This document shows, in pieces, positions 18,017 to 50,470 of a stretch of 64,000 nucleotides of DNA. The DNA is from Apostichopus japonicus (lineage: Eukaryota > Echinodermata > Holothuroidea > Aspidochirotida > Stichopodidae): positions 23,276,398 through 23,340,397 of the forward strand of contig NC_092577.1 of NCBI RefSeq assembly GCF_037975245.1, written 5' to 3'. The position numbers and the translations under genes were made by a program. Positions within the stretch are counted from its first letter, which is position 1, and the number at the start of each line of letters is the position of its first letter. Below the pieces are notes generated by a model, which had not been told where the DNA came from, did no database searches, and worked only from the letters and a program-made list of their open reading frames with translations.

Positions 18017-18091
18017 ATAACAACAGGTCAATGAAGGCCATTTCAATTTTTCATCGTCGTGGCAACATAGTGTTATCAATTAGGAAAATAA

Positions 18092-19358: not shown

Positions 19359-19390
19359 AAGAGACTAGGAAACATTTGGGTTATTAAGGA
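19359..19390 (+). repeat. Left terminal inverted repeat
   Basis: About 24-32 bp, AAGAGACTAGGAAACATTTG then weaker similarity. It differs from the right copy at position 6 and near position 20. Confidence 0.9.
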
Positions 19391-19978
19391 AATATGACTT
19401 TTCACTTTTTCTCCAAGTAAAAGCTGAAAAATGAAAGATGTACGAGTGAATTTAACTCTTTTACGTTGAAATTTGGTCTGTTAAGCAACACCTGGTTTTT
19501 GCATTGTATAAGTACATGAAAAATATGACATTTGAAATATGTTGCGTATTTTCTCATTTATTTGCATGTAACATTTCTTATTTGTAAAATTCTGTAAATA
19601 TAGATTTATTCAGAAATGCAGGATACATAGCCATTTACATGGAATAATTTACACAACAGTGTTACCTTGTTAATTCATAGTAAAACGAGCAGACATAAAC
19701 ATTTCATCTCTATTCTGGTGGATTAGATGTCTTAAAAGAGTTTGCTGATTCAGATACTAACAAATTAAGCAATTTAGCCATAACATTCACTGAATTTTTA
19801 ATCAACCATCACTTACTAACAAAAGCAAAGATTTTTATCAATCAAGTTGACAAAATATAGCAACAATTTAATATATGATTATTTTTGGTATGATTTTCCC
19901 AAAGCGAACATAAAATACAAGTATTTTTGGAGAAATAGTCATTTTGGGGCAAAATGGATATATCGTAAAAATTTTTGG
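19391..19978. other. AT-rich stretch without a gene
   Basis: Between the left TIR and the motif cluster. The two short opposed ORFs at 19,842-20,041 overlap each other and the repeat and look accidental. Nothing else seen. Confidence 0.6.
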
Positions 19979-20451
19979 TATCTCTGGGGCGTTCCAATAC
20001 ACCCCTACCAGTTAAGTGTAGCAATACACCTCTACTTGTAATAAGTTGTATCTTTGGGGCGAACCAGTACGCCCCAAACAGTTAAGTGTAGCAATGCACC
20101 TCTACTTGTAATAAGTTGTATCTTTGGGGCGAACCAGTACGCCCCAAACAGTTAAGTGTAGCAATACACCACTATGATAAATTGTATATATCTTTGGGGC
20201 GTACCAGTACGCCCAACCAGTTAAGTGTAGCAATACACCACTATGATTAATTGTATATATCTTTGGGGCGTACCAGTACGCCCCAACCAGTTAAGTGTTG
20301 AAATATACCACTATGATAAATTGTATATATCTTTGGGGCGTACCAGTACGCCCCAACCAGTTAAGTGTAGCTATACACCACTATGATAAATTGTATATCT
20401 TTGGGGCGTACCAGTACGCCCCAACCAGTTAAGTGTAGCAATACACCACAG
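19979..20451 (+). repeat. Left subterminal repeat cluster with palindromic 20-bp motif
   Basis: Seven units of about 60-70 bp. Each has the core GGGGCGTACCAGTACGCCCC (9-bp arms around CA) followed by aaccagttaagtgtagcaat. Cores lie at 19,986, 20,056, 20,116, 20,196, 20,265, 20,335 and 20,403; the outermost is the most decayed. The layout, repeated short palindromes just inside the TIR, is typical of transposase-binding subterminal repeats in large DNA transposons. The function is inferred. Confidence 0.85.
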
Positions 20452-20790
20452 AGAAAATTATGTGTGTTTCTCAAAACTACATATCTTCTTTTACACAAGT
20501 TGTTTCAAGAAAATAAGAGTACACACTGCCCAATCAATAATATGTGTAAAACATAAGGTTTCCTAGTTATTCAGCTCAAATTCTTTATCTATAGCTGCAT
20601 ATCTTTCTTTCAAGTCACAGACTTCCCTCTTTGGAAGGCGATTTTATGGGTTAAATTAAAGTCCCAGAACATTAAGGAATGGAAAGAAACTGATGATGTG
20701 TATGGCTGCTTATTTCTTCCTTGGCCAGTCTAGCAGTTTCCAGTCTCCAGTCCAGGATCCCTTCATCCAATGTAAAATAACCTGATCCTT

Positions 20791-21174
20791 TTAAATTTTA
20801 GTGACTTCTCCTAAGTATGGTCGCGTGCTTGAATCAATGAGGTTTACGGCTGCTATATTCCCAACTTGAATATAGTCAGATACTTCAATAACTTCTTTAG
20901 CAAAGTTATAACATATATATATATCACCACTCTGAAGATCTTCAACTCTAAAAGCCAGGAGCAGAAGGGCAGAAGGACAGAAGATAGCGGTTCTTATTCT
21001 CCCTGTAACAATTATCCATTTGCAAAAACAGATCCTTCCCAAGAGTATCCTTGTGCTTCACTAGTGTCCACAAATTGCATGTAATGGTCATGTTTGAATC
21101 ATGTTGGATATGCTTCAGATCAGTCATAACATATACAAACTTGTCACATGGACCTTTAGTGTGAATTAGGACAC
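20791..21174 (-). pseudogene. Transposase exon with DNCYRENKNR motif
   Basis: Acceptor cttttcag at 21,175-21,182. The frame gives VLIHTKGPCDKFVYVMTDLK, HIQHDSNMTITCNLW, then DLFLQMDNCYRENKNRYLL, a stop caused by a one-base shift, and in the next frame LLLLAFRVEDLQSGD ending GNIAAVNLIDSSTRPYLGEV. The expected HTHED segment between these is missing, suggesting an internal deletion. Decayed C-terminal coding continues to about 20,571 (REVCDLKERYAAIDKEFEL). Confidence 0.7.
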
Positions 21175-21189
21175 CTGAAAAGAAAGAGA

Positions 21190-21660
21190 AGAATGAATAT
21201 ACTACTTCATTGACATGTATGATAAAGAGGTTGTTATGAATTGTTTTTTGCTTTTAAATTAAGTTTGATAATTAACCTACTACGTGCTTTAACAACAAAA
21301 AAACAGTCACATAATATTTAATGGATACCAAGGCCATTATCTTTATCAGAACAACAAAATAAAGAACAGAATTGATTTCACCTCAACCAAAACAATAGGA
21401 ACACTAGACTTCTTGTTACCTTAGGTGTCCATCCTTATACTATTTATAAAGATAATCAAGCTTCCCCTCTTCAGACATTGTGTTGAAAAACAAGGCATCA
21501 TACAAACAAACACCCTGTATGCACACCCACACACACATACTGCTCAAGCACATACATAATGTACTATACACCAACATGACATCACAATTTCATACTGTAG
21601 GATTACAATTTCTTGGAAACAAGAAAATGTGATGTTTACACTTATAATGACATAAACACT
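21190..21660. other. Intron-like sequence of the transposase gene
   Basis: AT-rich, with a short CA-rich run near 21,525-21,540. No coding similarity seen. Confidence 0.5.
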
Positions 21661-21689
21661 TTCCGTGTTGTGCACTCTTAGGTCACTTC

Positions 21690-21889
21690 ATAATACCATG
21701 GAACTATTATAGCTCCATGATAATACTGATCTGTTATGTTGACGTGGATGTTTAACATCCTTATCACTCTGGACAAAATGTGGCAGATCAGTCTTTGATT
21801 GGTCCATTCCATCCACTACAAGGGTATTCAGTTCCAAAGAAACCTGGCACACCTTAGTGCGGGCAAGATGTTACTGCTCTCCTTTTGAC
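21690..21889 (-). pseudogene. Transposase exon with first catalytic-type motif DGMDQ
   Basis: An AG acceptor precedes 21,889. One frame reads LELNTLVVDGMDQSKTDLPH and then FVQSDKDVKH; stops lie upstream in that frame and downstream. DGMDQ..K..(I/L)PHF is the signature I associate with DUF7869-type proteins, the D being a likely metal ligand. The donor is not clear. Confidence 0.65.
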
Positions 21890-22693
21890 CTAGTAAAAAT
21901 AGAACATACTATGATACAACTCTTAACTGATACAGGGTTAACGATATCAGATAAGAAATATTGATTTGAGTTTTGATCCGATATCATTTGAAAAATAATA
22001 TAAATGATATATGAAAAAGAATGCTACAATATCCCAGTATTTTTGGCTATTTTCAGGAAACTTTTTGCAATATACCAATAATAAAAACTTCATATCAACA
22101 GAACTCTAACTGAAATACATCATATTACATCATATTAATCCATATTACATGTAAGAATATCGTAGGACGGGTTTAGACCAAATCTCCAAGATTTTTGTCA
22201 CCAGAGTGCTGGCAAAGAAAGCACAATATATTGAGTGTTTATACTACATGAATAATTATAAGTGATGGAACCATTTTGCTAAATATAAATAATTAAGTGT
22301 CCCCAACCCCCAAAAAAAAAAAATTCACCCCCCCACCTGTCCCTCCCTAAATCTTCAAGGCTGGCACCACCACTTTTCTTGCATGACTTTACAGCAAATT
22401 CATGGTATTTGCATTTTTTTACCCTTCATATATGAAGCTGTGTTAAGTTTCCTTGCCTGCCCCATTACCCCCTTGTGCTGACTTCAAATGAACTCTGACC
22501 TCCATAAACCAATACTAGGAAACAACTAAATGTGGCTTTTGTCTGAAACAAAGTTAAAAGTTTGAACAATGGTTACATGTTGACATATGGTGATCCCAAG
22601 TTATTCATACTATTGTGTGAGAGATGTTGAACACAACTGAATTTTTACCCACATGCATTAGCTGTAACTACACACCATCTAGGCTATCCACAT

Positions 22694-22709
22694 AAATATC
22701 AAGTTGGCA
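22694..22709. repeat. LINE target site duplication, left copy
   Basis: AAATATCAAGTTGGCA, repeated exactly at 27,630-27,645. Confidence 0.92.
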
Positions 22710-22920
22710 GTTGGCTTTCGTGGAGTGCGGACGTGTTTTGGCTCTCGCTCTTCATCTGTTACAGCTGTTTTTGTACTGTGCTGTGCTATACTTCCCGCCA
22801 GGCGGGTGTGATAGCTTGTGTTCGTGTGTTTTCCTCAGTTCGTATATCGTTTGTTGTTTCACTATCCGGTCTTTTGTTTGTTTTGTGTTACTCCCCTGTG
22901 GCCTAGCCACCTTCGGTATC

Positions 22921-24060
22921 ATGGCATCGCGCCGTGATTCTCGGATAGTTAAGTTGTCGTTCACCGGTGAACAAGCTGTTCCACCGGTGCAAGTTTTTAG
23001 TATTTTGAAGAGCAAGGGTGTTGTTGTGCCTGGAGAGGTTGATGCTTTGCAAGCTCTCCAGGGTCGTAATACGTACGATTTACGTTTTACCAGTGACGTG
23101 GCCCGTCAGAAAGGGGTCACGTTGCTGAGTAACGTCGAGGGGATGACAGTTACTCCATACGAGCGATCCGTATGGGTAACTATCATCCACGTAGGACTAG
23201 AGGTGCGGCAGGAACTTGTCGTAACGGTTTTGGGTCGGTTCGGGGCTGTCAAGGCTGCCAAAATGTGCTCCTATGCACAAGCCCCTGGGGTGTTGAACGG
23301 GCACCGACAGGTTCGGATCGACCTGAAACAGGACATTCCCTCCTTCCTGTTTATAGCAGGGCACAAAGCCCACGTGCGGTATCCCGGTCAGCCCCGTACC
23401 TGCTTCAGGTGTGGGGAGACCGGGCACGAAGCCAAGGGCTGCCCAAACAAGAAATGTGGGCGCTGCCTTCGTCTTGGGCATGATAGCACCGCTTGCCCAA
23501 ACGAGGTTGTGTGTTCACTATGTGGGAAGGAGGGACATGTCTTTCGAGCTTGTCCCTCCTCTTATGTCTCTAGGACTAAGAGTGGGGGTAAGTCAAGTTC
23601 CGACGCACCTAGTACTTCACGAGAGGGGGAATCTGGTGGGATTTTACCCTCCCCTGCACCTGGTTCACCCTCCCCCGTCGTTGCAGACCCCAACCCCGTG
23701 CCCGCACCGAGAAAGTCTCCACCAGCTTCCCCCATCAACTCGTCCAGTTCCGTCCCCAGTCCGCCGCCGGTATCGCCAGATCCGGAGGCTTTGTCTGACG
23801 GAGAATCGGTGGTCATCGATTCTCCGGAGGTTCTGTCCGACGGCGACTCCGGGGACTCGGTGGTCATCGGGTCTCCGGAGGCTCTGTCTGACAGCGACTC
23901 CGGGGGCTCGGTGATCGTCGAGCCAAAACGTGCCACTGGGACGAGCTGGTACGACGAGATGGGGGAACCCTCTCTAAAAAGGTCGGCCTCAAGTGACGAC
24001 TCGGACGACGATATGTCGTCTAGAGCGCGCTTGAAGCTTACAGAATCGTCGTCGGCGTAG
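22921..24060 (+). CDS. LINE ORF1 protein (gag-like, three CCHC zinc knuckles)
   Basis: 379 aa from ATG at 22,921, chosen because the related copy also starts MA(S/A)RRDS(R/K)IV; an upstream in-frame ATG (22,711) only translates 5' UTR. RNA-binding/chaperone protein of the retrotransposition particle. Residues 1-150 contain a conserved fold (VPGEVDALQ, DLRFTS, SVWVTI). CCHC knuckles start at residues 161, 179 and 198 (CFRCGETGHEAKGC, CGRCLRLGHDSTAC, CSLCGKEGHVFRAC). The C-terminal third is Pro/Ser-rich, then acidic, with three imperfect copies of EALSDGxSxxSVVI(D/G)SP. Open throughout, ending 20 bp before the ORF2 start. Confidence 0.88.
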   Translation: MASRRDSRIVKLSFTGEQAVPPVQVFSILKSKGVVVPGEVDALQALQGRNTYDLRFTSDVARQKGVTLLSNVEGMTVTPYERSVWVTIIHVGLEVRQELVVTVLGRFGAVKAAKMCSYAQAPGVLNGHRQVRIDLKQDIPSFLFIAGHKAHVRYPGQPRTCFRCGETGHEAKGCPNKKCGRCLRLGHDSTACPNEVVCSLCGKEGHVFRACPSSYVSRTKSGGKSSSDAPSTSREGESGGILPSPAPGSPSPVVADPNPVPAPRKSPPASPINSSSSVPSPPPVSPDPEALSDGESVVIDSPEVLSDGDSGDSVVIGSPEALSDSDSGGSVIVEPKRATGTSWYDEMGEPSLKRSASSDDSDDDMSSRARLKLTESSSA

Positions 24061-24080
24061 TTTTGCCCCATTGCCCTCTC

Positions 24081-27000
24081 ATGGCCCATACATTTTCAGT
24101 TGCCACTTTGAACGTGAATGGCATGAGGGATCATCGCAAGCGCAGTCGCATTTTCCAATATTGTATTTCAATGGAGGTCGACTGCGTTTGCCTGCAAGAA
24201 ACACATATTTTGGAAGAAGATGTCCCTCTATGGGCTTATGAGTGGGGTGGTGGGCTGCATGCTTCGTTTGGTTCGTCTTCATCCTGTGGCACTGTCATCC
24301 TTCTGTCACCTCGTCAGGCGGGTTGTGCCACTAGGGTGGAGACGGATCACGAGGGCCGATTGGTTTGCATTCTTTTCAAGTATCCACAGGGTAACATCTC
24401 CCTCTGCAATGTGTATGCTCCCAATCGGCCTTCTGCTAGACGAGAATTTTTTAACACGCTGCCTTCCTTTGTTCCTGGTAGTGCACCATGTGTCATGGTC
24501 GGAGACTTTAACTGTGTCCCAGACTCGGTCTTGACAGACTCGGGGCTTCTGTGTCTGCTAGTCCTGACGCTGGGATCACAGAATTGGAAAGATTCACTTC
24601 GGCACACCTTTTAGCCGATGTCTGGAGGCATATGCACCCGTGTAGTACGGTGTATACGTGGGTGAGGCCTAACGGAGAAGATGCCTCCAGGATAGATCGA
24701 GTGTATGCGCCCGTAAGTTTTACATTTTCGGGTTGCGAGACGCTCAGCTGTCCGCTCTCTGACCATGACACTGTGGTAGCACGTTTTGTTTTGCCTTCCA
24801 TTTTCCCCATCGGGCGGGGCCTATGGAAGCTTAACTGTCGGATTCTTGGCGAGGCAGACTTCCGCCAGGGTTTCGAGACCAGGTACAAAGGACGGCAAAC
24901 ATTGAAGCCGGCCTTTGCTTCTACATCCCAATGGTGGGATGATGTCAAGTTGCGCATCAAACGCTACGCAATTCAGTATTGCGTGACCCGCGCACGGCGT
25001 CGAAGAGAAATTCTCGAAGCTGTGCGCGGAGGTGAAGTTTGGCGACCCTTCGGCTGTCATCGCTTTGCAGACTTATCTCGATGAAAAGTACCACGGTGCC
25101 CGCGTCAGGGCCCGTGTGGAAGCGGTGGAAGCCGAGGAGCGCCCTTGACTGAGGTTTTACCAGTCCGTTAGCTCATCGGCAGGTGACAGACGCGTCCCGT
25201 CTGTGCGCGCTACTGATGGGACCGTGGTTAGTGACCCTCACGGCATTGTCCGCGTATATAAAGAGTATTATTCGAGTTTGTTTACGCGTGGCAATGTCGA
25301 CTTGTCGGCACAGGCTAAATTATTGAGGGGAATCTCAAAAACCGTTCCCCACGATGTCAATGATATTTTGGGGGGCGGAATAACCACTGTTGAGCTTTGG
25401 AAGGCGCTTTCGAAGATGAAGAATGGCAAGTCCCCGGGTTCGGACGGGCTTCCGAGGGAGTTCTACCGAACCTTCTGGGCAATAATAGGACCCGACATCA
25501 GAGCCGTCTTCGAGGACGCCTTCCAAAACGGACTGTTAAACCAAAGTCAACGTATGGGCATGATTACTTTGCTGCCCAAGTCTGGGGACTCCTTGGATCC
25601 CCGTAACAAGCGTCCGATCACCTTGTTAAATGTGGACCACAAGTTGCTGGCTAAGGCTTTGTGCAACCGCCTTGCACTGGTTATGCCGCATCTTGTGGGT
25701 GATCTCCAGACTTGTGCAGTGAAGGGTCATTGCATCCAGCAGAACTTGTGGTTGATGCGCGACTTGACCGACTTTGTTATTGAGCGTGATCTGCCATGTG
25801 CATTGGTGTCTCTGGACCAGCAGAAGGCCTTTGACATGGTGGATCGCGGTTTTTTAATGAACGTATTGGAGACGTTTCAGTTGCACCCAAATTTTCGTAA
25901 ATGGATTTCTGTTTTGTATGAACAAAGTTTCAGTTCTGTTATCGTAAATGGGTTTTGTTCGGAGGTTTTTAACGTAGAGAGGGGGGTGCGCCAGGGGTGC
26001 CCTCTGTCTCCATTACTTTATGTTTTGTTTAGCGAATCCCTCTCTCGTCTTTTGGAAAGGGACTCCAGACTTGTTCCATTCGTTGTGCCAGGGGGTGCCA
26101 AAGTGAAATGCGCTCAATATGCAGATGACGTGACATGTGTTGTTTCGAGTCTGGGCTCCTTTCGCGCACTCTCGCAGGATTTATCTATTTTTGAGAGAGC
26201 TACCGGGGCGAAGTTGAATCCAGAAAAGACAAAGGGCCTTCGTCTTGGTAGCTGGAGATACAGAGACTTACCATTCGGTGCGTCGTGGTCGGATCAGAAT
26301 ATCAAAATTAATGGTATATGGTTCGGCTACGATGCACCTGGTGATGTCACCTGGAGCGAGAGGGCTGAGGTATTTGAGAGCAGGCTCGAAACCTTTGGCA
26401 CCCGCTGGCTTTCGATCCTAGGGAAAGTCACCGTAGTTAATCGTTTTGTTTCGCCCATCTTGTGGTACCCGGGCGCGGTGTATCCAATTCCGCGTCGCGT
26501 CCTGGTGCGGTTGGAGAGAGCGATATTTTCATTTATTTGGTCGGGTGGTACAGAGCTTGTCAAAAGGGCGGTAATGTACCAAAAACTGGAGAAGGGTGGG
26601 TTAGGGGTGGTTCATCTGGGAAGTTAACTTGCTTGTTATTTAAGCAGTTGTTTGTAGCGGTAACTGACCCAGGGTTGCCTTGTTCATATTTTGTACGTTT
26701 TTGGGGCGGTTTGCACCTGCGTCGATGGGTCCCGGCGCTGTTTAGCAACAGAGAACCACATAGTAGTACTCCAAACAGGGCGGTGCGTGTCATTTGCTCC
26801 GCTCTGATTGAGTTGCCCCCTGTTGACCTGTCACAGCCGGCCCTCGTTCACAGTTCGTTGCGGGATAGGGCCTTGAATGCAATTTTTGTACAGGGACGTC
26901 ATCCTGTCGAAGTATGGCGTTCGGTGCATTCAAGGCTGAATGGTTGCAGGCTCCGTGACCTTGCATGGAGAATTGCACACGGTGCCTTGGTGACCAATCT

Positions 27001-27466
27001 GAAAAGGTATCACTGGCGATTGGGTGATGGACTGTGCCCGAGGACCGGCTGTGACAGCTTAGAGAGTACTGCCCATGTTTTTTGGCATTGCCCCTTTGTT
27101 TTGAACTTGTGGGAGTGGTTTCAGTCCTGGACCGACCGTTTAACGGGAGACCGTTCCTGGTCGGTAGGACAGGGTTTTGTTTTGTATGGATTAGATCCTC
27201 CAGTTTGTTCCGTTGCTGTGTTGCAGCGTATTATTTATGTTTGTTCTGTTGTAAAAAAACTTATTTGGAGGAATAGATGTGATGTTGTTTTTAGGGGGAA
27301 TTTTGCCAGTTGGCAGGCAGTCCTGGAGGCGGTGAAGTCTGACATTCGCCTTCATGTTGAAGGCGATTTTCGCCGTCTATCTAGGGCTGCCTTTTTTGGA
27401 CGGTGGTGTGCTGGGGAAGGGTGTTTTGTTTCGCTGCGTGCTGGTCGTCCTTTTGTAGTTTTTTAA
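24081..27466 (+). pseudogene. LINE ORF2 (AP endonuclease + reverse transcriptase), frameshifted
   Basis: Would nick target DNA and copy the element RNA at the nick. Endonuclease motifs: TLNVNGMRD, CLQETH, VGDFNCV, SDHDTV. RT motifs: LPKSGD, FDMVD (with VSLDQQKAF), GVRQGCPLSPLLYV, QYADDVTCV with YADD at 26,118-26,129. C-terminal CPRTGCDSLESTAHVFWHC is the Cys/His motif of L1-group ORF2. Frame breaks near 24,550, 25,035 and 26,620 and a TGA near 25,147 inactivate it. Start ATG at 24,081 (MAHTFSVATLN) follows ORF1 closely; an in-frame ATG at 24,063 is possible. Confidence 0.88.
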
Positions 27467-27629
27467 TATTTCAGTGGGGGGTTGGGCGTTTTGTCTCTGC
27501 AGGTCGGTGAGCGTATGTACTTTTTTTGGCTCGCTTGACCTGAGGTTCGTTTGTAAGAATGGGATGGTTTGGTAGTGCCGTTTGGCCGTGACGTTTTGTA
27601 TCCCGTATGACGGGTCACGTAAAAAGCAC
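27467..27629 (+). other. LINE 3' UTR
   Basis: GT-rich, ending with ...gtcacgtaaaaagca. The terminal cacgtaaaaagca is shared with the copy ending at 53,929 and is probably what the reverse transcriptase recognises. Confidence 0.7.
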
Positions 27630-27645
27630 AAATATCAAGTTGGCA
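27630..27645. repeat. LINE target site duplication, right copy
   Basis: Exact match to 22,694-22,709; the empty site would read ...cataAATATCAAGTTGGCAattcaag. Confidence 0.92.
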
Positions 27646-27946
27646 ATTCAAGCAAATTTTGCAACTTGAGATATCATGAATACAAGGTTTTTTATATTTG
27701 GCCTCTGTTGATCCAATGACCTTTCTCTGAACTATACGGTTTATCATCTTAGTTAGGGCTACTTAATATCCAATTTGTAGTTCAAGCAAGTTCTACTTTT
27801 TGAAAGAGATAAGTGTTAAGAAGGAGCATCACTGACACACCCACACATATAGATAGTTTATCTATTCCTTTTGACTTCTGCAAGGATTCAAAAAGGAAAG
27901 CAGACATAAACTTTTAATTCTAAATTAGTAACATATTTTGACTTAC

Positions 27947-28059
27947 TTAACATGATTAAGATGAACTTCTTGCAATTGTTGGCATTCTTCATTTTCCTTT
28001 CCAGTTCTCGCTCTTTCCGCTACCTCTTTCAAGGACTGATAAGTACCACACACAGTAAA
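27947..28059 (-). pseudogene. Transposase internal exon (FTVCGTYQSL...)
   Basis: Open through its length: FTVCGTYQSLKEVAERARTG, then KENEECQQLQEVHLNHVK. Bounded by an AG acceptor at 28,060-28,061 and a consensus GTAAGT donor at 27,941-27,946. The CxxC/xxL..E..R...H pattern usually precedes the first catalytic aspartate in this family (one cysteine here is Tyr/Thr context). It is the best preserved exon. Confidence 0.65.
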
Positions 28060-28061
28060 CT

Positions 28062-29900
28062 CAGTTGTGTAGAAAAATATAATGTTGAAATACTTTAATT
28101 AAGCATTTAAAGTATAAGTTAGACTTCACACAATAGTGTTAAATTGAACTGCTTAACTTAATCAAGAGAAAGTTAGGTAGTGATTAATAAACAGTTTTAT
28201 TGTGTCAATTTGAAACATGTTGTTTTAATGACTACCCATAGAATAATGCAATGGGCATGCTGGATTTTTTTTTTAACAATTATAACTCAAGCTAAGGATT
28301 CTTTTAGGTACTCTAGAAAATTCCTTTAAAGGAGTATAGGGTGTTGAGAGTAGCTATTGAGAAAAGAACAAGTAAAGCTGTACAACATCTTCTCATGTTA
28401 TTTAATAGACCAATTGATAGGGATGTTTGGAAATAAGACCCTAATTTGAGAGAAAGGTAGTGTCCTGCTGGCATTCATTTCACTCATATATCATCCGCAC
28501 CTAAGGAAAATTGGAATAAAACCTGATATTTCCATAGTCTGTATAGGCCCCACATTATAGCACGCTACTGCATAATTGCTATACGTTTTCAAAAAGTACT
28601 TTCCTGGAGGTCTTTACTCTGCTCAGTCATTCTGAATGAACACACATGGTAATCATTTGTCCCAGACAGTTAAGGTAAATGTCCTCATAGGTGGAAATGA
28701 AAACAGTTAAAGAAGTTTGATGAAAGGTGAGCATTTAATTTCTGGCATATTTGGGACAATACTTCACACCTTTAAGGAACTTTCTGAAAATGTCAACATC
28801 TAAAGGAGTTGTTTATTGACATTTCAGCAAAAAGCACTTTTCTTCCTGATTTGAGGGGAGGTTACAATGAAAGTTATGTAACATGTTCTTTAAAACTCTT
28901 TTAAATCAACTTTTTTGACAATAATTCTAACGTTTTTAAGGAATGATAATGCAGCTGTAGTGGTACACTAGCTGCGAGGTGTATTCTCTCCAGTATGTAC
29001 AGTACAGTCTTTGTGCTTGCTGAAGCTAACAATAGAGACACATGAATTTTTATGAAGAAATTTTTAATGGACTGCACTTGTAGTTAACTGAACAGATTAA
29101 ATGTCACTGGATTGTATGGAGTTAAAGCCTCCATAGTCAGCAAAGATAATAGGATGCAATGCCTGTGGTTTTGACACCCCTGGCTGTGAAACCCACCAAC
29201 TGTGATTGATCAGCAGACCATCTGTAATGTACACAGAGCTTGTTAGTGTGTAAAAGTAAGTTCAATCCTAGCAGGACAAGTAACAGTAACAAATGGGACA
29301 AAAACATGCACAGAATACAGACAGGTCAATGAGCACATGGTGAACACAATGAGATAACAGGGAGTTGTTGGATACATGTAAGGAGATTAGTAGACAAGGG
29401 ATGGAAGGAAGAAAGCAACAGGGGAAGAGGAGGGGTAGGAGATAAACAGTGGAGGGACAAAGAGAGGATTAAAGGAACAGGGTAGGGAATAAACTGGAGA
29501 AGGACAAAGACAGAAAGGTGTGGAGAGAAAAAAAAAAAAGAAAAGGGGGTGGAAGAGGGCTGTGAGAAGAGGAGTGAAGGAGGGGGTGGGGAACAAGGGA
29601 AGGAAGGGGACAGAAGAAATGTTTGTCATGTCCTTCCTGAATGTTGAGCCCATGAGGTTGAATGGTGCGAAGGCGTTGCATCCACATTGCTATTGTTAGT
29701 GTGAAATTGAATTCTGGCAAAATAGTCTTACAACAGCACTTTGGACCTCACAAGTTTCAGTATACTTTATCAATGACTTCATGCTAGTTAATTAATTTAA
29801 AGCTACTAGCTATGAAATTGTATTCCATTTTCCCATGTAACTGTCATAAATCCAATAATGCACATTCACAAGATAAAATACCTTAGGAATCTTGAACTTT
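28062..29900. other. Intron of the transposase gene, no gene seen
   Basis: AT-rich, with no recognisable coding or repeat except the purine tract listed separately. Confidence 0.5.
29388..29606 (+). repeat. Polypurine (GGA/GAA) tract
   Basis: About 220 bp of almost pure A/G on the plus strand (ggaaggaagaaag, gggaagaggagggg, aaaaaaaaaagaaaag). Could form triplex DNA. Opposite-strand ORFs here are low-complexity translations of the tract. Confidence 0.8.
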
Positions 29901-29904
29901 TATT

Positions 29905-32577: not shown

Positions 32578-32585
32578 TTCGTATC

Positions 32586-38040: not shown

Positions 38041-38045
38041 AAGAA

Positions 38046-39388: not shown

Positions 39389-39394
39389 TATTAT

Positions 39395-40117: not shown

Positions 40118-40855
40118 ATGGCAACAAGGCATGCAACGATAGATAAGAAGTTGGACACTATCATGGAAAAACTGGCCAATTTGGAAGGAATTCCGACCCA
40201 ACTGGCAGATATTCAGTCCGAATTTAAAACACTGAAATCTGCAATGGTGGAGATTAACGAGTCTGTTGAGTTCATGGAGAAAGAGGTGGTCGAATTGAAA
40301 GAAGTTATGAAATGCAAAGCTACGAGAGAGGAATTTGAAGGGTTAGGAAGTAAGCTAGCCAACATTGAGGAATCCACACAAAAGAGGCTGGATGATTTGG
40401 AGAACCGGTCGAGAAGGCAAAATTTAATCATCTTTGGAGTCTCTGAATCAAATAACGAATCGTGTGAGACAATCGTAAAAGATGATATTTTACACGGGTT
40501 GATGGGCTTCACAAATATCAACCTTGAACGGGTTCACCGTACACCTGGGGGACCGAGGAACCCATCACAGGAGAAACCGAGGCCGATCCACGTCCGTTTC
40601 CGTGACCTTAGTGACAGGGATAAATTACTCCAAGCAGCTCCAGGCAAACTGAAGGACAAGCCATATCGGGGGGCAAAGATTTTTATCAGCGATGATATTT
40701 GTCCAGCAATTCGAAATGCTAGGACAGCTCTTCGGGCGAAACTACCAGAAGTTAGGCAAGGGGCCGGAGTCAGATACGCCTATGTTCCGCGATCCGTACA
40801 AGCCTGTATAGTCATGGTGAAGACCGATGGGAGTAGACATAAAATATATAAATGA
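40118..40855 (+). CDS. L1-type ORF1p (coiled coil, RRM, C-terminal domain)
   Basis: 245 aa, intact, from ATG at 40,118. Residues ~5-90 form heptads typical of a trimerising coiled coil (LDTIMEKLANLEGI, LKEVMKCKA), then LENRSRRQNLIIFGV (start of the RRM, about residue 95), a basic GPRNPSQEKPRPIHVRFRD segment, and a C-terminal domain with AKIFISDDICPAIRNAR. Known L1 ORF1p binds element RNA as a trimer and acts as a nucleic acid chaperone. Shorter than human ORF1p (338 aa). Confidence 0.85.
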   Translation: MATRHATIDKKLDTIMEKLANLEGIPTQLADIQSEFKTLKSAMVEINESVEFMEKEVVELKEVMKCKATREEFEGLGSKLANIEESTQKRLDDLENRSRRQNLIIFGVSESNNESCETIVKDDILHGLMGFTNINLERVHRTPGGPRNPSQEKPRPIHVRFRDLSDRDKLLQAAPGKLKDKPYRGAKIFISDDICPAIRNARTALRAKLPEVRQGAGVRYAYVPRSVQACIVMVKTDGSRHKIYK

Positions 40856-41115
40856 GAGTCATGGACCCAGACGGAAGTGTCCACATGTATCTGTTTTGAA
40901 TCATGGAGGATTCGATAGAAGTAACTGCTATAGTGGGATGTGTGTTCCTGGTTGGATGATCGTGCTATCTTTTTTCGTATGTGTTTCTTTGTTTTTCAGC
41001 ACCGTATCGGTGCTTTGTTCTGTGTTGTTCTTTGTTTTTTATGTTTGTATCTTTGTTATAAAAAATCTCTTGCATGATGTGTTGCTTCTTGAAGTGGTGA
41101 ATATGAAGTATTCTT

Positions 41116-44100
41116 ATGGCTAATAGTTTCAACATTTCGTCCCTCAATTGCCAGGGGCTTAATAGTAAAAATAAAAGACAGGATGTTTTGGACTACTTGA
41201 CACAGGTGAAAAGTGACATTTATTGTTTACAAGACGTTCATTGGGATGAACACTTGGTTGATAGTATTCTCTCAGAATGGGATGGAGATTGTTATATTTC
41301 ACCTGGGACGACTAATTCAAGGGGGGTCGCTGTTTGTATAAAGTCAACAGGAAATGTTACTGTTTGTAGACATCATTCTGATAATGAGGGTAATTATATT
41401 GCATTAATCATTGAGACTGCAGGACTTACATTCACTCTCGTGGTCCTTTATGGGCCTAATAACGATACTCCAATTTTTTATAACAACATTCAGGAGGTTA
41501 TTGAGGATTTTAATACCCCTCATATTATTATTGTTGGGGACTGGAATCTCGTTGTTCCTGAAGTTGATACTTATAATTATCTTCATATTAATAATCCCAA
41601 AGCTAGACAGGCAGTATTAAACATGCAGAGTGATTTAGAATTGTTTGATGTGTGGAGAGTTTTGCATCCTAATGAGAGAAGGTTTACTTGGCGTCAAAGA
41701 AATCCAGTCAAGCAAAGTCGATTAGATTTGTTCCTAATCTCTTCTGGTTTACTCAACATGGTGTTGAAGTCATATATCACAACAGGTTATAGAACTGATC
41801 ATTCTTTAATTACTACATCTTTTAACTTCAATGTAATTAGGATGGGTAGGGGCATTTGGAAGTTCAATAATTCTTTGCTTGATGATGAAGGTTACTTGAA
41901 GAAAGTCAATGATGTGATTGACTCAACGATTGATCAGTATGTATGCTTCCCATATATTCGCTCTAATTTAAATACAATTCCAAGAAAGGAAATTCAGTTT
42001 GTTATTGATGATCAGCTTCTCTTTGAAATGCTGCTGTTGAATATTAGGGGAGCATCAATTTCTTATTCCTCCTATAAGAAGAAGGTCCAAAACAGTAGAG
42101 AAAAATATCTTATTGAGGAAATTAATCGTATTGAGCCTTTTCATAATGAGAGTGAGGACACAAAGAATTATATCGATCAGTTGAATCGTGAGTTGGAGAA
42201 GTTACGTGAAAAAAGACTTCATGGGTGTATGGTAAGAGCTAGGGTTGATTGGCTGGAATATGGAGAGAAGCCTTCTTAGTTTTTTTCTCAATTTAGAGAA
42301 GAGAAATAAGGTCAGTAAAACTATTACTCACTTAAAAGATGCAGATGACCATGATATTTACGACCAGGATCAAATTCAAAAGGATGTGCTCCATTTTTAT
42401 CGCCAACTTTATAGATGTCATGATGCTTTTTTAAGAAATGAAGATCTCCATGAGAAGTTCTCAGATAAAATTGTGAAATTATCTACTGATCAGTCAAGTG
42501 ATCTGGAAGGGCATCTGACATATGGGGAAATTACAGGAGTTTTGAGGAATATGAAGAATAATAAGTCGCCAGGTTCTGATGGTTTCTCCGTTGAATTTTT
42601 CAAATGTTTTTGGGACGATATAGGTCCCTTGTTATTACGGTCACTGTCACTTTCTGTGACACAAAAGCATGGTGTAATTACCCTAATTCCGAAAGGTGGC
42701 AAACCACGTTATTACTTAAATAATTGGAGACCAATATCTCTGTTGAATGTTCCCTATAAAATTGCATCTTCATGTATTGCTAATCGTATGAAAAAAGTAT
42801 TGCCCAATATTATTTCTCCTGACCAGAGTGGCTTTCTTGGTGGTAGGTACATTGGTGACAGTATTCGCACAGTGTATGATATTATCCATTCCCTGGAGTT
42901 AGATAATACACCAGGTATTTTGTTTGGGGTTGATTTTGAAAAGGCCTTTGACAGTATATCAGTTACTTTCATTAGAAAAGTTCTTAATCTCTTTAACTTT
43001 GGGCCGTCTATTATTAGATGGTTTGATACTTTCTATAGTGATAATTACTCATCAGTGTTGGTAAATGGTTTTCTGTCAGAAAAATTTCCCATTGAGCGTG
43101 GTTGTAGGCAGGGTGACCCTCTGTCCCCTTATTTATTTATTCTTTCTGCTGAACTTTTGAATAGCCTCGTTAACAGTGATGATTCTATTCGTGGTATTGA
43201 TATTGGGGGACAGGTTTTCAAAACTGTTCAATACGCAGACGATACAACCTTTTTCATGCATGGTGACAGTACTTCGTTCAATAGGGTTATGGTACAACTT
43301 GACTATTTCAGAGATTTGTCTGGTCTCAAATTGAATTTGGACAAGTCCCTTTTAGTGGGACTGGGTAGTTTGAGAGGGCTTTCCATTCCACTTGATAAGA
43401 AGTATGCTATTCGTTGGAACACAGGTGAAGATTTCACTCTTTTAGGAATTGTTTTCAATACAGATTTGGGGGGCATGGTTAAAAAAAATTACGATAAAGC
43501 ATTGAATAAAGTTTCAAATGTGATAAAATTGTGGGAAAAGCGTTATCTTACAGCGCTTGGTCGTATTACAATTGTTAAGTCTCTCATGTTACCATGTTTC
43601 AACTATTATATCATGTCACTTCCGCTGCCTGACTTGGAGTATAGAAATAGGGTAAATTCTCTATTTTTCCGTTTCGTATGGAAAAATAAACCAGACCGTA
43701 TAAGCCGTAAAGAATTAAAGCTCAGTTATGCAGATGGAGGGTTGAATATGATAGATTTTTCTAAACGCTGTGAGGCACTCAAAATAAGCACTTTTGGTCG
43801 TCTTCTGAAGAGTGATCATTTCAGCTTCAGCTCTTGTTATTTACGTAAATATAACATTTGCACCGACATGTTTTTTACCAATGGGGATTTCTATATCAAA
43901 TTAGCTAGTTTGAGATCTGCTAACCCCTTTTGGAGAAATCTCTTCGAAATAACATATATATTTATTCGAGATGAGCTATCTACCATTAATAATGATGCGA
44001 CCATTTTAACTTTGCCTCTCTGGAATAATGGGCTGATCGGAATTGCTAACAGTCCAGTGTATTACAAGCGCTGGTATGACAAAGGTATCCGTTTTTTGGG

Positions 44101-44610
44101 CGATTTTGTCAGTTGATGGCAGGTTTTATAGTTTTGACAATTTGATCCGAAAGTATCTTGTTTCCACGAATTTTGTAGAATATTATGGTATTATTAACTC
44201 CATTAAAACTTTTTGGAATGGACCTGCTCTGGATGGGAATATGGGTATTGCTTTTCCAAACAATTGCTACTTTAACAAAATGCTTTACAATGGTATGTTC
44301 CGTTCGAAAGTTATTTACAACAAGTTACTACAGGAATCGAAGTTGATTCAGAAATCCTATACGAAATGGTGTGGTACCCTCGATATTACTGAGGAAGTGT
44401 TCTAGTGATGTTAATTTGAGGTGGTTTCAGTATAGGCTGCTTCAGAGGATTATCCCGTCCAATAAGTACTTGCATTTAATAAAAGCAATTACTCATGACA
44501 CTTGTACTTTTTGTCATACGTATGTTGAGACAATTGAACATTTCTTCTATTATTGCCCACTCTCAGTTGGACATTGCCAGAGAGCTGAATTTGATTATAA
44601 TTTTAGTTAA
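41116..44610 (+). pseudogene. L1-type ORF2 (endonuclease-reverse transcriptase), frameshifted
   Basis: Endonuclease: ISSLNCQGLNSK, YCLQDVH, VGDWNLV, SRLDLFLIS, TDHSLI. The usual catalytic Glu in LQETH is Asp (LQDVH). RT: LIPKGGKPRY, WRPISLLN, GVDFEKAFDSI, GCRQGDPLSPYLFIL, VQYADDTTFF with YADD at 43,232-43,243. C-terminus: CTFCHTYVETIEHFFYYC. Breaks: near 42,270 (after EYGEKPS, where KFFLNLEKRNK would follow), near 44,110 and near 44,400. Otherwise long frames (387 and 623 codons) show moderate age. Confidence 0.88.
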
Positions 44611-44859
44611 GAAATTCATTTTCAACTGCAAAGTACGGAAAGAAATTCCACTGCAGAATAAGTTACTATTGTTTCTGAGGGACTATTTTCTATTACAAAA
44701 AACATTTTGAGTAATATGAAAAGCAGTGTTTGGAGGAAATATTGGTACCCTTGGTATAATTTTTTACAACTTCAGAATGTATTAAGATAAATACTTTTTA
44801 GTTTTTTCTAGGAATTTTCACTAAGTCACCATTAGAGTGCTATATTATGTTAATTTATA

Positions 44860-46410
44860 GTTGCAAGAGAAATAAAAAAGGAGAAAAAAAATAAGAAATT
44901 TTTATTCATATTTTTTATGAATTTTGATATGAATTTTGATATATGATTTTGTATTTTTTCATTATTATTAATATTCTTTTTTATAAAAAGAATATGGTGT
45001 CTCATTAATAAATGGGTTCTATTTGACCCTACCAGAGATAACAATACATTGCCCATGTTTTCATTGAAATATCCCCCCCCCCCCCCCCTTTGCAATCCAT
45101 CTGTCCTGCTGCACCTATGGTCACAAGATACAATCCTTTTTCAAAAGTGGAGAATGGAGAGGCGGGGTGTGCGACGTCATGCATTAATTGAAAGGGATTT
45201 GAGCCCAAAATTTAAAATTATACACGGTACAATAGAGTACAGTGGTAGTCACAAGCCTCCTCCTCCTGTAAATTAATCATTTAGCTCATTTGTTAAACAC
45301 TTGTTGGTGGCTGTTTACTCTTGAGAATTGTGCCCCTTGCCATAAAGCGAGAGATCTTGGTATTTTGTTATTAAACAGAACAATTAGTTTATCTGCAATG
45401 TGGCAGGCAGTACCACCAGAACATACAGTAGGGACTTCAGAACAACTAGTAATTATTGTTAGGTAAAAAATATGTCACCCCAACTTAAACTCTTATGATA
45501 AGCAAAGTGCTTTTTCCTGTAGGTCTATACAAACGGTCTTACAAGCCATAAAGACTAAAAACTGACCTGGCACATGGAACTAGGCTTAGCCTAGTCAGAG
45601 CCTAGAGTTTACAAGGATGGATGCATTCATTTTGTGCATGCATCAAAACGGCATTGGCCCTATATATGCCATATATTCAAATATGGACACCTTTGGTCAA
45701 TTTACCTCAGCTCTAGACATCAGTCACTGTGATGGTTCATTGATAATAACTGAGAACAATTGGAAAGTACCGGATTTTAAGTGAATACTGATTTTAATTA
45801 GACTCCACCTTGGCTAGGTCACGGCTAGTAAGACCCGGCCTAGCCTCGTAAGTTTAGATAAGTTATATTTTTGTTTAACTTGTAATAAACTAATAATACA
45901 AGAAAAGAAAGCATCAGGAGGGACAGTCAAATACACATCAATGACCCTATGGCAGAGAAAAAACCTGAAGGCACAAAGATCAGAACCGATTATAATGCTT
46001 AAAGTATATATATACTTGTCCAAACATTGTTTAACTCATTCACACTACTTGTAGTTCTAGACTAAGCTTGTACTGTAGTTCTTGCAATACAACTACAAGT
46101 AGGCCTCGGCTAGTGTTCTCAGTAGTATAACTATTAGTATTATGCTAGGCCTAAGTTTAGATTAGGCTAGGCCTATGCTATAATACACCAAAAAATACTG
46201 TGATGCGCATGGCTACAAATTTCGCGGATGCAAAACATAAACAAAGGCATAGAACCTAGCCTATATGTAAGCTTCCTTAGCATTTGAATCGTTTAGGCCT
46301 AACATTTTCGATAATCTTAACTAACGTTTCGACTACGCTTCGCCTAGTATTAGTAAGTTTGTCAAACCTGAAACGAAACAAGGATTGGAGTGATGTGATT
46401 GTGATACAGG
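44860..46410. other. No gene seen
   Basis: AT-rich, then a 17-base C run near 45,072. From about 45,590 to 46,360 many ctaggcct/aggccta words occur. Short ORFs show no coding features. Confidence 0.5.
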
Positions 46411-46413
46411 GCA

Positions 46414-46520
46414 AGCCTAGGCCACAGGCACTCGTAACGTTATGTAGGTGTATAGTATATAATCTCCGTGTTTATATACTATACACCTACATAACGTTAC
46501 GAGTGCCTGTGGCCTAGGCT
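46414..46520. repeat. Perfect 48-bp inverted repeat (hairpin)
   Basis: Arms 46,414-46,461 and 46,473-46,520 are exact reverse complements, starting agcctaggccacaggcactc, with an 11-nt loop (atctccgtgtt). The arm core cactcgtaacgttat also occurs around 59,170-59,300. Confidence 0.95.
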
Positions 46521-47009
46521 AGATAGCGTAGCATAGTTCTAACTAGAAGTTCTAGGCTACATAGCGTAGTACTCACCTCTTCAATCAAAGTCTTTTCTGT
46601 ACCATTCTACTTGATCAAAGGGCCGAGACACAAATAAGGGCATTTAATTCCAATTTTAACTTGATAGCGACCAAATCTTTAGACCAAGGCAAAGTGTTTA
46701 CAACGCTGTAGTGCATCAGATTCACGATCGCCGGGTTTCGCTGGTCGCGCCGGAACTGAAATACGCGGGTTTTTCTTCTAGGGAGGGTGCACGCTGAGAG
46801 ATCGGCACAATTTGAACGTTTAGATCAGAATTTAACTTCTCAAACTGACCTATTTTGATGAATACTGCATCAAATTGGTTAATTCGACCACTAAATATGG
46901 TATAAATGATCCAGCTAAGGCTCTTAAAATATTTAAACAATCATCAAACGTAAAAATTATGTTTAATTTGCGTGCATGGCTAAGGTGAATCACGCTACTT
47001 GAGAGGGAA

Positions 47010-47125
47010 ATAGTTACGTAATACACAAGCTCACTTTCCAAACTAATAACCTTGAATGGTGCAGAGACGGCCAGTGTCCATCAGTGAACGTCCGTGCTAC
47101 TAAAGGGCGGATTCTCACATGCACA
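47010..47125. repeat. Segment repeated at 34,570-34,680
   Basis: About 110 bp, roughly 70% alike by eye (gttacgtaatacaca, ccaaac(a/t)aataaccttgaa, ctac(a/t)..agggcg). Same orientation; lies in the foldback's extra insert and here. Nature unknown. Confidence 0.5.
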
Positions 47126-47531
47126 ATCAGCCTGTAAGGAGCTGATGGAGAAAAATCCAGACAAGAATGTGTTCGCTTCCCGTCTCTGTATAATTTACAG
47201 TAGGTCTCTGTCTAAAGATGCAAACTTTGGTTAGCAAACAAGCACAACAAAAAAGGGGAAACCTGGCATCAGTTGAGCATTAAGGTAAAGGTGACTACTG
47301 TGAATGTAACATTGTTTTTATGGAAGAATTTCTGCCGAGCAGTCATTCTTCTCATTCCTCCATATTGTATATTCAGGTTGCAATGACCAACGCATTATGA
47401 CATTGAAAGTGTGCATGGAAAGTCCTTGTCTATACATAACACATAACTTTGTGTTGTGCACACTGCACACAGAATAGCTCTGTTACAGTATGTGAATTTT
47501 CAAATGATTGTTATCTAATCACTCTCATTGG

Positions 47532-48591
47532 CAGGGGCGTAGCGAGCGGGGGTGTGACATCCCCCCAATAATTTGGTCGCTGTCTGCAAATTTTGTGTCT
47601 GTGGGCAAATTTTGGGTCTGTCGGCAAAAGGACAAAAGGTGAAGAGAGCGGAAGGGGAAGAAAGAAGGAAAGCTGAATTGAGAAAAGGAGAACGGGAGCT
47701 TCTTTATCGGTTATTTTGATTTTCCAGTTCTTCATCTGATAAACTCATTCACCAATCCAATCACCCGACGCATGCAAGTTAAAAACCTCTCGGCAAATAA
47801 CCGATAATGTCACGGCCGTCAGTATAGCTATTGTAGCCAGGCTCAGCCAGAATCGCCGGCAACTCAGTGAAAGAGAAAAGTGGTATTGCTCCAACTAAAA
47901 ATATTGATGAAAAGGTATACATACTCATTGCGATGGTTTGAGCCAGAGAGGCGTAGGCAAAGCCTAATTACATTCACCAATGTTCAGCAATCAGAATCTG
48001 ACTTCCTAATTTCAAGCTGCGATTTGTATAATCTTCTTTCCAATATCAGGTACCGGTATGCAATTTTTCTTTGTTATCAAATTAATTCTTCTTCTGCCGA
48101 CTGCCATAAAAGTAATATCGAAATGGAAATTTTACGGTGCCAAATTTGACTTAAAATATGCACCAGCTGACAGGCGCGTAGCCAAGGGGTGGCAAGGGGG
48201 CAGCTGCCCTCCCCCCCCCCCCGCCTTGAACATATTATTTTATGATATCGCTAGTAATTTCAAAAGAGAAAATGCTAAGATACAAGGCCTGGGAAGTGCC
48301 ATTTCCAGCGATCTGGGAGGCATTTTTGCCCAAATTTTCTTGTGCGCTACGCTTTGATAGTTTGCAATACCGTATCTACCGCTCTCATAGTTTGCCGACA
48401 TTTTCGCCCTCCCTTAGCAAATTCCTGGCTACGTGCCTGGCACCAGATTGCATCTATGGACGTTTCAAAACTAAAAATTTTCACACCCCCTCCCCTTAGA
48501 CCCCTCACCAATTTCAGTCACCACTTCCAGATCCGTCGGCAAATCAAATTCTCCACACCCCCCCAACAAAAAAACCTTCGCTACGCTCCTG
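47532..48591. mobile_element. hAT-like non-autonomous element (1.06 kb)
   Basis: Left end CAGGGGCGTAGCGAGCGGGG; reverse complement of the right end CAGGAGCGTAGCGAAGG. Flanked by CTCATTGG (47,524-47,531) and CTCATAGG (48,592-48,599), 8 bp with one mismatch. A similar pair of ends (ggcgcgtagccaagg near 48,172 and gctacgtgcctgg near 48,427) suggests a second, nested MITE. No transposase. Confidence 0.78.
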
Positions 48592-48599
48592 CTCATAGG

Positions 48600-49196
48600 G
48601 AGGATTAGGTACAATACTGCCAGTTGGACCATTAACAGTAACACGCAAACAGTTGCCATGGTAGTGGTTCGTTTTCCCGGTAGTGGTTGGGTTGATTTTC
48701 TTAAAACTTGGTATGAAGGTGTCCTAGGGTAAACTTCTATGTTTAGCAGACATCTGAAACATGGGTCAAATGTCACATCAAATTAAATTCAATATTTGAA
48801 TTCAGTATTACTCCAAGGGAAAACATTACATTCAAATGAAATCTTCACTTGTATAATGGGAACAACATGTAGGCCACTAATACAGGCAGAAACATGTCCT
48901 TCTTCATAGTATTACTCAGATTGTAGAGGACAGCAGAGTGATAGCACTTCAATCATATGACAGTATAGTCCTGCTAACTTATCATATCCAAAAACATTTG
49001 CAGCCTTTGTTCATTTCTTTTTTTACTATCAATGCGACAGATAAAAAAATTAATTAAAATGGTAAGACTGTCAGGGTAGAATAAAGTTTTATTTCTCTCT
49101 TTTTTTCTGAAGATGACACAGAAATGCTCACACAGTCTGTTTGGTCTGGCCATTGCGTTTAAGGGGAAAACCATTGCAAGGAAACTCTGAGGGGAT
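48600..49196. other. No gene seen
   Basis: AT-rich unique sequence between the MITE and the right-arm ORF. Confidence 0.5.
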
Positions 49197-49424
49197 GATG
49201 GCACAGATCTTAATGTGCTAACTGTTGCTAGAGATGATCCTCTGACCACAGAGGATGAAAAAAGGTGTATAGCACTGATTAAAAGAAGCGTATTGATTTT
49301 GGTGAAATTCAAAGATCATTTGGGGACAACAGGGAGGTTAATTGTCCTGAAGGGTATATGTGTTCATATTCAGGAAGTGGCAACACTGAAACAGCCACGT
49401 GGTCTACTCCTCTGCAAATCCTAA
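49197..49424 (+). CDS. Possible second gene (last exon) of the giant element
   Basis: An open frame of about 75 codons, GDDGTDLNVLTVARDDPLTT then EDEKRCIALIKRSVLILVKF, ending LKQPRGLLLCKS, about 220 bp before the right repeat cluster. It points outward to the right, mirroring the transposase gene which ends beside the left cluster. Composition looks coding rather than random, but I recognise no family. The first ATG is at 49,215; the frame is open upstream, so a spliced exon is possible. Could be chance. Confidence 0.3.
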   Translation, partial: DGTDLNVLTVARDDPLTTEDEKRCIALIKRSVLILVKFKDHLGTTGRLIVLKGICVHIQEVATLKQPRGLLLCKS

Positions 49425-49639
49425 AATGCTTGTTTTAAGTGTGAATAAGATAAAAAAAAAGGAGAGGTGGTTAAGGTTACAGTGACTTCTCCTATCATTG
49501 CATTTTCTTGGTGAAAAATAATTATTATGGGTATCAGTTTGCCCATTAGCAATCTGCAGGGTCTGAATACATCCTTCAGAACTGCATTGTAAGCCACTTA
49601 CTGTTGTTATTAATGATGTAATTTCTTATTGCTAAATGA

Positions 49640-50055
49640 CACTCCGAGCAGTAGGGGGTGTATTGGTACAGACTTCAGAACTGCATTCTTAGCCACTTGA
49701 TGGTGTTATTATGTTATTTCAGAACTAATGTTGTAACTCCTTGGTGCTAAATAACACTCCAACCATTAGCGGGCGTATTGGTACGCCCCTTAGAACTGTA
49801 TTGTAAGCCAATAAATGTTGTTACTTCTTAGGGTAAAATAACACTCCAACCATTAGCGGGGCGTATTGGTACGCCCCTTAGAACTGTATTGCAAGCCACT
49901 AAATGTTGTTACTTCTTGGTGCTAAATGACACTCCAACCATTAGCGGAGCGTATTGGTACGCCCCTCAGAGCTGTATTGTAAGCCATTTAATTGTGTTTC
50001 TTCTTGGTGCTAAATGACACTCCCATGCAGTTGTGGGGTGTATTGGTTTCACTGA
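49640..50055 (-). repeat. Right subterminal repeat cluster with the same palindromic motif
   Basis: About five units with the core GGGGCGTATTGGTACGCCCC or decayed forms, at about 49,655, 49,771, 49,858, 49,946 and 50,035. Each is preceded by gctaaatgacactccaacc and followed by gaactgtattgtaagcc. The core is the left core read on the other strand (TTGG for CTGG), so the clusters are mutually inverted, as expected for the two ends of one element. The outer units are degenerate. Confidence 0.85.
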
Positions 50056-50438
50056 TTAACTTTTTTACAGGGAAAAGAGATATTTAACTTCCTTTTAATT
50101 CCTGTAAGATATTAACCTACTCAATTTCAGTTTATGGTCATGTAGATAAAATATAACATGAAATACATAAGTTGGTACAAAGAAAGAATAATTTTCTCAT
50201 TGTGTTATTTTTTGTCTCAAATTTATATATCTGCAGTATGATTACAATGCATTTGCCTTTTTAACTCACATTCTGAAGGTTTATAGACAATGACAGTCAT
50301 AGCGTAGATTTTTCCCTTATATATACCATATTTTTATACCCGAGTGCAAACGTCATTAAAAGCAATATAATTTCTGGAAAATTTATCAATGTTGAACAAA
50401 TTATTTTTTTTCTTGGATAAAAGTCAGGTTTAAATAGT

Positions 50439-50470
50439 TCCTAGAAACCCTAAATGTTTCCTAGCCTCTT
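50439..50470 (-). repeat. Right terminal inverted repeat
   Basis: Reverse complement reads AAGAGGCTAGGAAACATTTA, matching the left end over about 24 bp with two mismatches. Confidence 0.9.

Follow-up and report, generated by a model that had tools for sequence, protein, structure and literature searches.

The window analysed here, 64,000 nucleotides from the holothurian Apostichopus japonicus, holds a 5S ribosomal RNA gene split by 31.1 kb of other DNA (positions 19359-50470), and it raises the question of what kind of element lies between the two parts, at what length it moves and with whose enzyme. We consider it quite probable that this region is an old, interrupted copy of a giant non-autonomous family of cut-and-paste transposons, about 23-24.6 kb long, with 19-bp terminal inverted repeats (TIRs) and 4-bp target-site duplications, which is mobilised in trans.

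The insertion of a TIR element into the 5S gene is confirmed as real. At the left junction the assembled window reads ACCGG TATA and then AAGAGACTAGGAAACATTT, the element starting at 19359, while on the right AAATGTTTCCTAGCCTCTT runs up to 50470 and is followed by TATA GTGAAC; read on the other strand, the right end is AAGAGGCTAGGAAACATTT. The terminal inverted repeats of this copy agree at 18 of 19 bases. An earlier, sequence-only reading had proposed matching inverted ends, TATA on both sides and an insertion inside a 5S gene, all of which are seen at the two junctions. Its division of the gene into two parts also stands, but not the sizes it gave (97 + 23 = 120 nt): the interrupted gene, on the minus strand, occupies 19263-19358 and 50475-50497, and 96 + 23 adds up to 119 nt, which is the length of the intact 5S copies in the window (Rfam). 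The Rfam match to the broken gene covers 19263-19370 (51.8 bits) and so extends into the element. Of the 73 occurrences of GAGAACCGG on the plus strand of the window, 71 continue with TATAGTCA, which is the pre-insertion site; of the remaining two, one continues with TATAAAGA, which is the junction, and the other with another word. With 71 intact sites in the same window, a true 4-bp duplication is the best interpretation of the two TATA words. An assembly artefact as the source of the element is very unlikely in view of its many independent copies.

These copies were sought across the 35 contigs (671.6 Mb) of the genome from which the window comes, where the end pattern gave 119 matches with at most two mismatches, compared with 41 for the reversed control. 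Pairing used the best 100 of the 119. Among these, 89 have zero or one mismatch (75 and 14, respectively), of which 76 form 38 head-to-head pairs and 13 remain unpaired; matches with two mismatches were not paired, and for 8 of the 13 unpaired ends 36-nt stretches were read but left out of the duplication count. The genome thus holds at least 38 head-to-head pairs and, among the matches listed, every one of the 38 combines an AAGAGA-type with an AAGAGG-type end; the family therefore has two different ends in a constant combination. A perfect 4-bp duplication flanks 34 of the 38 pairs, as against 20 of 1406 mismatched pairings of left and right flanks. Three copies on contig C16, at 15.96, 16.59 and 16.98 Mb, have identical 20-nt flanks and apparently stem from one locus that was triplicated, element included, over about 1 Mb; collapsing them leaves 36 independent sites, 32 of them with perfect duplications. 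With inverted ends and a fixed-length duplication at many independent sites, the family fits a cut-and-paste TIR DNA transposon. Pair lengths range from 2.7 to 124.5 kb, and 16 of the 38 fall between 22 and 26.7 kb.

Some pairs and ends have features of their own. On contig C1 (3183886-3308397) a perfect GTTA duplication flanks a pair whose ends are separated by 124.5 kb, which represents either extreme growth by nesting or a mobilised unit of very large size. Contig C16 (46 Mb) holds 13 of the 38 pairs, or 11 of 36 after the triplet is collapsed (binomial p 1.9e-5); local hopping is one possibility for this enrichment. Two ends on C22 (17151469 and 17182692) share the same orientation, with GATA-type repeats alongside on opposite strands, which suggests an inversion within a copy.

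The predominant length class was followed in six copies read whole from overlapping pieces: one on C16, taken as the reference, two on C17, and one each on C22, C9 and C10. They measure 23.4-24.6 kb, and the other five cover 96-100% of each 1-kb bin of the reference, apart from one bin covered at 73% in both C17 copies. Pairwise identity is 95.5-99.6% (aligned pieces of at least 1.5 kb). Flanks are unrelated among the six; four have perfect duplications and two match at three of four positions. Near-identical copies in unrelated flanks indicate separate, fairly recent insertions of the whole unit, and the best reading is a common family form of about 23-24.6 kb that is non-autonomous and moved fairly recently. 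Segmental or assembly duplication could also yield near-identical copies, and has the C16 triplet with its identical flanks in its favour, but the other sites have unrelated flanks and most carry a perfect duplication of their own, which leaves duplication in place of transposition a very remote explanation. At the opposite extreme of size, a 2.7-kb copy on C14 comprises barely more than both ends and their repeat arrays, 84-90% identical to the ends of the reference, with a perfect CCAG duplication.

Measured against this common form, the window copy is a poor guide to size. Only 10,670 of its 31,112 bp align to family copies (the six whole ones and part of a seventh), at 87-93% identity per 1-kb bin in aligned bins, and 31.1 kb is therefore not the size of the unit that moves. 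The 31.1-kb TIR transposon of the sequence-only reading holds as a large TIR element but not as a unit, since 10.7 kb is family-aligned and LINEs (long interspersed nuclear elements) are included. The window copy is older than the 23-kb copies and heavily interrupted, the remainder including two LINE-bearing stretches. Its parts, together with the flanking 5S gene, are as follows; the sources are given where they bear on a boundary, features without a strand are unstranded, and DUF7869, the palindromes and the transposase exons are treated below.

19263-19358, minus strand: 3' part of the 5S gene, 96 nt including the left TATA (junction and Rfam)
19355-19358: left TATA target-site duplication (junction; pre-insertion sequence 71 times in the window)
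19359-19377, plus strand: left terminal inverted repeat, AAGAGA type (junction and genome end search)
19359-22013: left family-homologous segment, 92-93% identity to the reference copy (alignment)
19979-20449: left subterminal array, 70-bp period, 7 GGGGCGTA..TACGCCCC palindromes with at most two mismatches
20969-21175, minus strand: DUF7869 exon relic (LFLQMDNCYRENKNRYLLSFC), open in the window copy
21748-21870, minus strand: exon relic (VVDGMDQSKTDLPHF) of the probable transposase
22014-27709, plus strand: non-family-aligned stretch with a LINE (zinc knuckles, endonuclease, reverse transcriptase)
27710-39531: decayed family interior, about 86-93% identity where alignable, broken by unaligned stretches
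29909-30130, minus strand: N-terminal exon of the probable transposase, decayed and interrupted by an in-frame stop
39532-47212, plus strand: non-family-aligned stretch with a second LINE (endonuclease 41107-42279, reverse transcriptase 42236-44116)
47213-50470: right part, with family sequence at 47213-47535 and from 48684 onward and about 1.1 kb between them mostly unaligned
49770-49965: right subterminal array, 88-bp period, 3 palindromes
50452-50470, minus strand: right terminal inverted repeat, AAGAGG type (junction and genome end search)
50471-50474: right TATA target-site duplication (junction)
50475-50497, minus strand: 5' part of the 5S gene, 23 nt (Rfam and by-eye alignment to the intact copy at 50701-50819)

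Outside the element, minus-strand 5S genes are densely packed in tandem over positions 1-19000, often spaced at 195 bp, and a few of these copies score far lower (75-80 bits). Just beyond the right end, at 52408-53151, lies a zinc-knuckle open reading frame (ORF) similar to the one that comes first in the LINE at 22.7 kb, and an ORF at 62833-63471 has a weak otubain-like match (Peptidase_C65) under the curated cut-off.

The position of the window copy inside a 5S gene had suggested a preference for such genes, and this suggestion is not borne out. Of the checks proposed with it, the ends were searched for in the same genome and the bases beside them tabulated, and the other copies have different duplications at unrelated sites, which speaks against a target preference. 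Duplicated words are diverse across the 38 pairs (GTTA, CAAC, GCTG, TAAT, CCAG and others); counted by eye, the two middle bases are both A or T in 23 of the 34 perfect duplications. In 37 of the 38 pairs, the flanks (mostly 30 nt per side, up to 1500) have no 14-mer in common with the window's 5S array, the window copy being the sole pair with 5S-array sequence in its flanks. Since the words vary and 37 of 38 flanks share nothing with the array, a 5S preference is unsupported. A transposase recognising TATA within 5S genes would agree with the window copy, where TATA is the exact duplicated word, but the variety of words, the flanks of the other pairs and the 71 intact occurrences of the same 5S site in the window make such targeting highly improbable. 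The best reading is that the family shows no sign of favouring 5S genes and that this insertion was one chance event.

Both ends of the element carry arrays of a 20-bp palindrome, GGGGCGTA-NNNN-TACGCCCC (at most two mismatches). The reference copy has 15 of them at 0.63-1.64 kb and 11 at 22.04-22.87 kb with none between, at periods of 70 bp and 88/66 bp. Their number varies among copies, from 18 + 16 in the copy at 1.56 Mb of C22 to 7 + 3 in the window copy. The exact palindrome occurs at 919 sites in the genome compared with none for its reversed control, and all 50 sites among the matches listed lie inside two family copies on C1. The arrays are likely to serve in transposase binding and end pairing.

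As for the enzyme, the Pfam domain DUF7869 was recognised (E 3.3e-17) in an exon that lies on the minus strand, towards the left of the reference copy. The domain has 53 exon matches across the same genome, and a search of 14 control genomes yielded none. In the 23-kb type the match typically spans profile positions 23-82 of 192; exons B-D, where intact and joined, give E-values of 2.1e-49 and 7.4e-48 against DUF7869. Between the C22 and C16 lineages, exons B-D are under purifying selection, with synonymous sites saturated and a nonsynonymous divergence (dN) of 0.385. Conserved words of the protein include IVDGMDQSK, LFLQLDNCYRENKNR and VGHTHEDVDQMFS. From the location of the gene inside the family and from its conserved acidic residues, we infer that the protein is a probable DDE-type transposase. 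A literature search, with subscription papers mostly outside its scope, found no paper on DUF7869.

Matches to the individual exons, examined in 20 chosen sequences out of the window and 58 loci searched, show where a complete gene might reside. In the reference 23-kb copy, the exon search did not find exon D (HTHEDVDQ) or exon E. Across the genome these two exons give 10 matches at five loci, namely C8, C12, C22 and a divergent C16/C17 pair. The first three are family end pairs of 16.6, 15.2 and 37.0 kb, with the perfect duplications CGTG, TCTT and GTAT, respectively. The N-terminal exon has 46 matches genome-wide, most in open frames of about 91 amino acids, and at C22:19555028 it forms part of a 380-amino-acid open frame (the copy at 19.53 Mb of C22). 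This exon carries a stop in the C12 copy, and the 16.6-kb C8 copy has no match to it among the matches listed. The 37-kb C22 copy, which spans 19530270-19567292, is the sole family-ended copy in which all tested exons (N, B, C, D and E) are open and, judged by its exons and ends, is a candidate helper.

The 23-kb copies could instead be autonomous, the DUF7869 gene being spliced to an active short form or the enzyme being supplied by another, unrecognised gene. Several near-identical copies exist and the N-terminal exon is open in most, as would be expected of such elements. Exon C, however, is broken across frames in all seven of the 23-kb copies shown, the exon search found no HTHEDVDQ exon in the reference copy, and a stop interrupts four of the DUF7869 matches, three of which come from the triplicated C16 locus. 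Nor does any ORF show clear purifying selection: among reference-copy ORFs of at least 40 amino acids with at least six changed positions, compared with the two C17 copies and the window copy, the best uncorrected p for an excess of synonymous change was 0.022 (best 30 ORFs listed), which is not convincing. A Pfam scan of 37 distinct ORF peptides, from the 55 distinct ORFs of at least 70 amino acids in the reference copy, returned the DUF7869 exon as the only one to pass the cut-off. Autonomy of the common form is thus unlikely in our judgement, and mobilisation in trans remains the preferred reading.

Several points nevertheless weigh against this reading. Four of the 38 pairs do not have a perfect duplication (3, 3, 3 and 1 of 4 positions match). 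The N-terminal exon remains open in most copies, and coding capacity was judged on single ORFs, so short spliced exons of another gene could escape. Two exon-like peptides of the C16 lineage (exA29_C and exN2) match no family copy among the sequences shown, and the gene model is therefore incomplete. Between C22 and C12, exons B-D differ by 4 synonymous and 7 nonsynonymous changes (synonymous divergence dS 0.038, dN 0.018), too few to speak of selection, with 0 synonymous and 3 nonsynonymous in exon B alone. Structure adds little: a PDB sequence search gave one match (E 1.1, not meaningful), and an AlphaFold2 single-sequence model of 414 residues of the distant single-ORF relative L059 reached a pLDDT (predicted local distance difference test) of 32.8. 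Finally, the case for the C22 copy as helper draws on about 3.3 kb of it, without a located gene start.

Other DUF7869 genes were seen beside those of the family. Open genes at C16:42323830 and C17:24708225, which score the same and do not differ in translation over the parts compared, are 44-76% identical per exon to the family gene and possibly belong to a second, related family. L059 (306-2894, on C20) encodes a single-exon protein of 862 amino acids with a distant DUF7869 match (28 bits), probably a different, related transposase. A relative was also sought among viral contigs, and none was found there.

A mechanism in keeping with the above would run as follows. The DUF7869 protein, acting as a DDE-type transposase, would bind the palindrome arrays and pair the two distant ends, and 4-bp staggered cuts would be made in loosely AT-centred targets. 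The enzyme would be supplied in trans by rare gene-keeping copies, with the 37-kb C22 copy as the one candidate, to the common form of about 23-24.6 kb, which retains broken upstream DUF7869 exons and is without the last catalytic exons. The family stands out for its size, given that its common form moves although it has no working enzyme of its own. That TIR units of some 23 kb lacking an active transposase have reached many independent sites suggests that such units can be mobilised in trans in an animal under natural conditions. It is also suggested by the family that DUF7869, so far a Pfam domain without an assigned function, acts in transposition. The palindrome arrays, which are found only at the ends and differ in number from copy to copy, give a starting point for studying how distant ends are brought together. 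More tentatively, and with less than even confidence, a DUF7869 transposase may define a group with dense palindrome arrays at both ends that is built for very long cargo, its non-autonomous units (about 23 kb, possibly 30-45 kb) having their ends paired and being moved in trans by a rare large helper. If true, such a group would be a natural exception to the view of eukaryotic DNA transposition as dropping off steeply above a few kb, and possibly a superfamily not yet described.

How does the family compare with known systems? Polinton/Maverick elements have duplications of about 6 bp. A degenerate Polinton/Maverick, or another virus-like self-synthesising element, would account for the size range and the inverted repeats. 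The family differs in its 4-bp duplication, and the 37 ORF peptides of the reference copy contain no match to the Polinton genes (PolB, retroviral-type integrase, capsid), in agreement with the sequence-only reading, which had noticed none in the large element; the recognisable gene is DUF7869. Such an origin is highly improbable, and Polinton was rejected as a class on the duplication length and the ORF peptides scanned.

CACTA/En-Spm elements have CAC termini and subterminal repeats. They were rejected too, since family ends start with AAGAG and not with CAC. According to a review of giant transposons, enlarged En/Spm (CACTA) elements of Chondrus crispus reach 16-20 kb and carry 4-5 ORFs (PMC6431247). 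These are likewise oversized DDE transposons, but the common form of our family is without a recognisable intact gene and its ends are not CAC. Pack-MULEs and other non-autonomous cargo carriers resemble the family in being moved in trans through TIRs; Pack-MULEs are mostly 1-2 kb, none exceeding the 7-kb full-length element in the set cited (PMC6431247), whereas the unit mobilised here is about 23 kb.

Dada elements have 6-7 bp duplications, small-RNA-gene targets in many, though not all, of their families, a DxxH/CxxH motif after the second D and complete lengths of 4,666-10,979 bp (PMC3706591), and some of their families insert in 5S genes (PMC8869645). The likeness lies in an intron-containing transposase and in those 5S insertions. 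The family is unlike Dada in its 4-bp duplications, its size of about 23 kb or more and its lack of a visible target preference. Among small-RNA-gene targets, 5S occurs in one of 38 pairs, with transfer RNA and small nuclear RNA genes not searched for in the flanks, and the DxxH/CxxH motif was not seen by eye in the exon C and D peptides, which make up a partial protein. Dada was rejected on duplication length (4 bp, not 6-7) and on 5S occurring in only one of the 38 pairs.

Sola2 elements come nearer, with TIRs of 12-21 bp and AT-rich 4-bp target-site duplications, AWWT in one Sola2 set (PMC3627910). The family shares 4-bp duplications and short TIRs (19 bp), but only one of its 34 perfect duplications, ATAT, fits AWWT, a pattern not known to define all Sola. 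In curated bivalve elements Sola1 averages 5.4 kb and is among the longest, the longest DDE families having means of about 5.5 kb (PMC10294476), so that the curated bivalve elements are far smaller than this family. The superfamily is possibly Sola-like or undescribed, the comparison with Sola being by description; the content of PMC4455052 and PMC12730594, in the parts used, does not settle it. Against the portions of the literature compared here, a non-autonomous family of about 23 kb is outside the usual size range.

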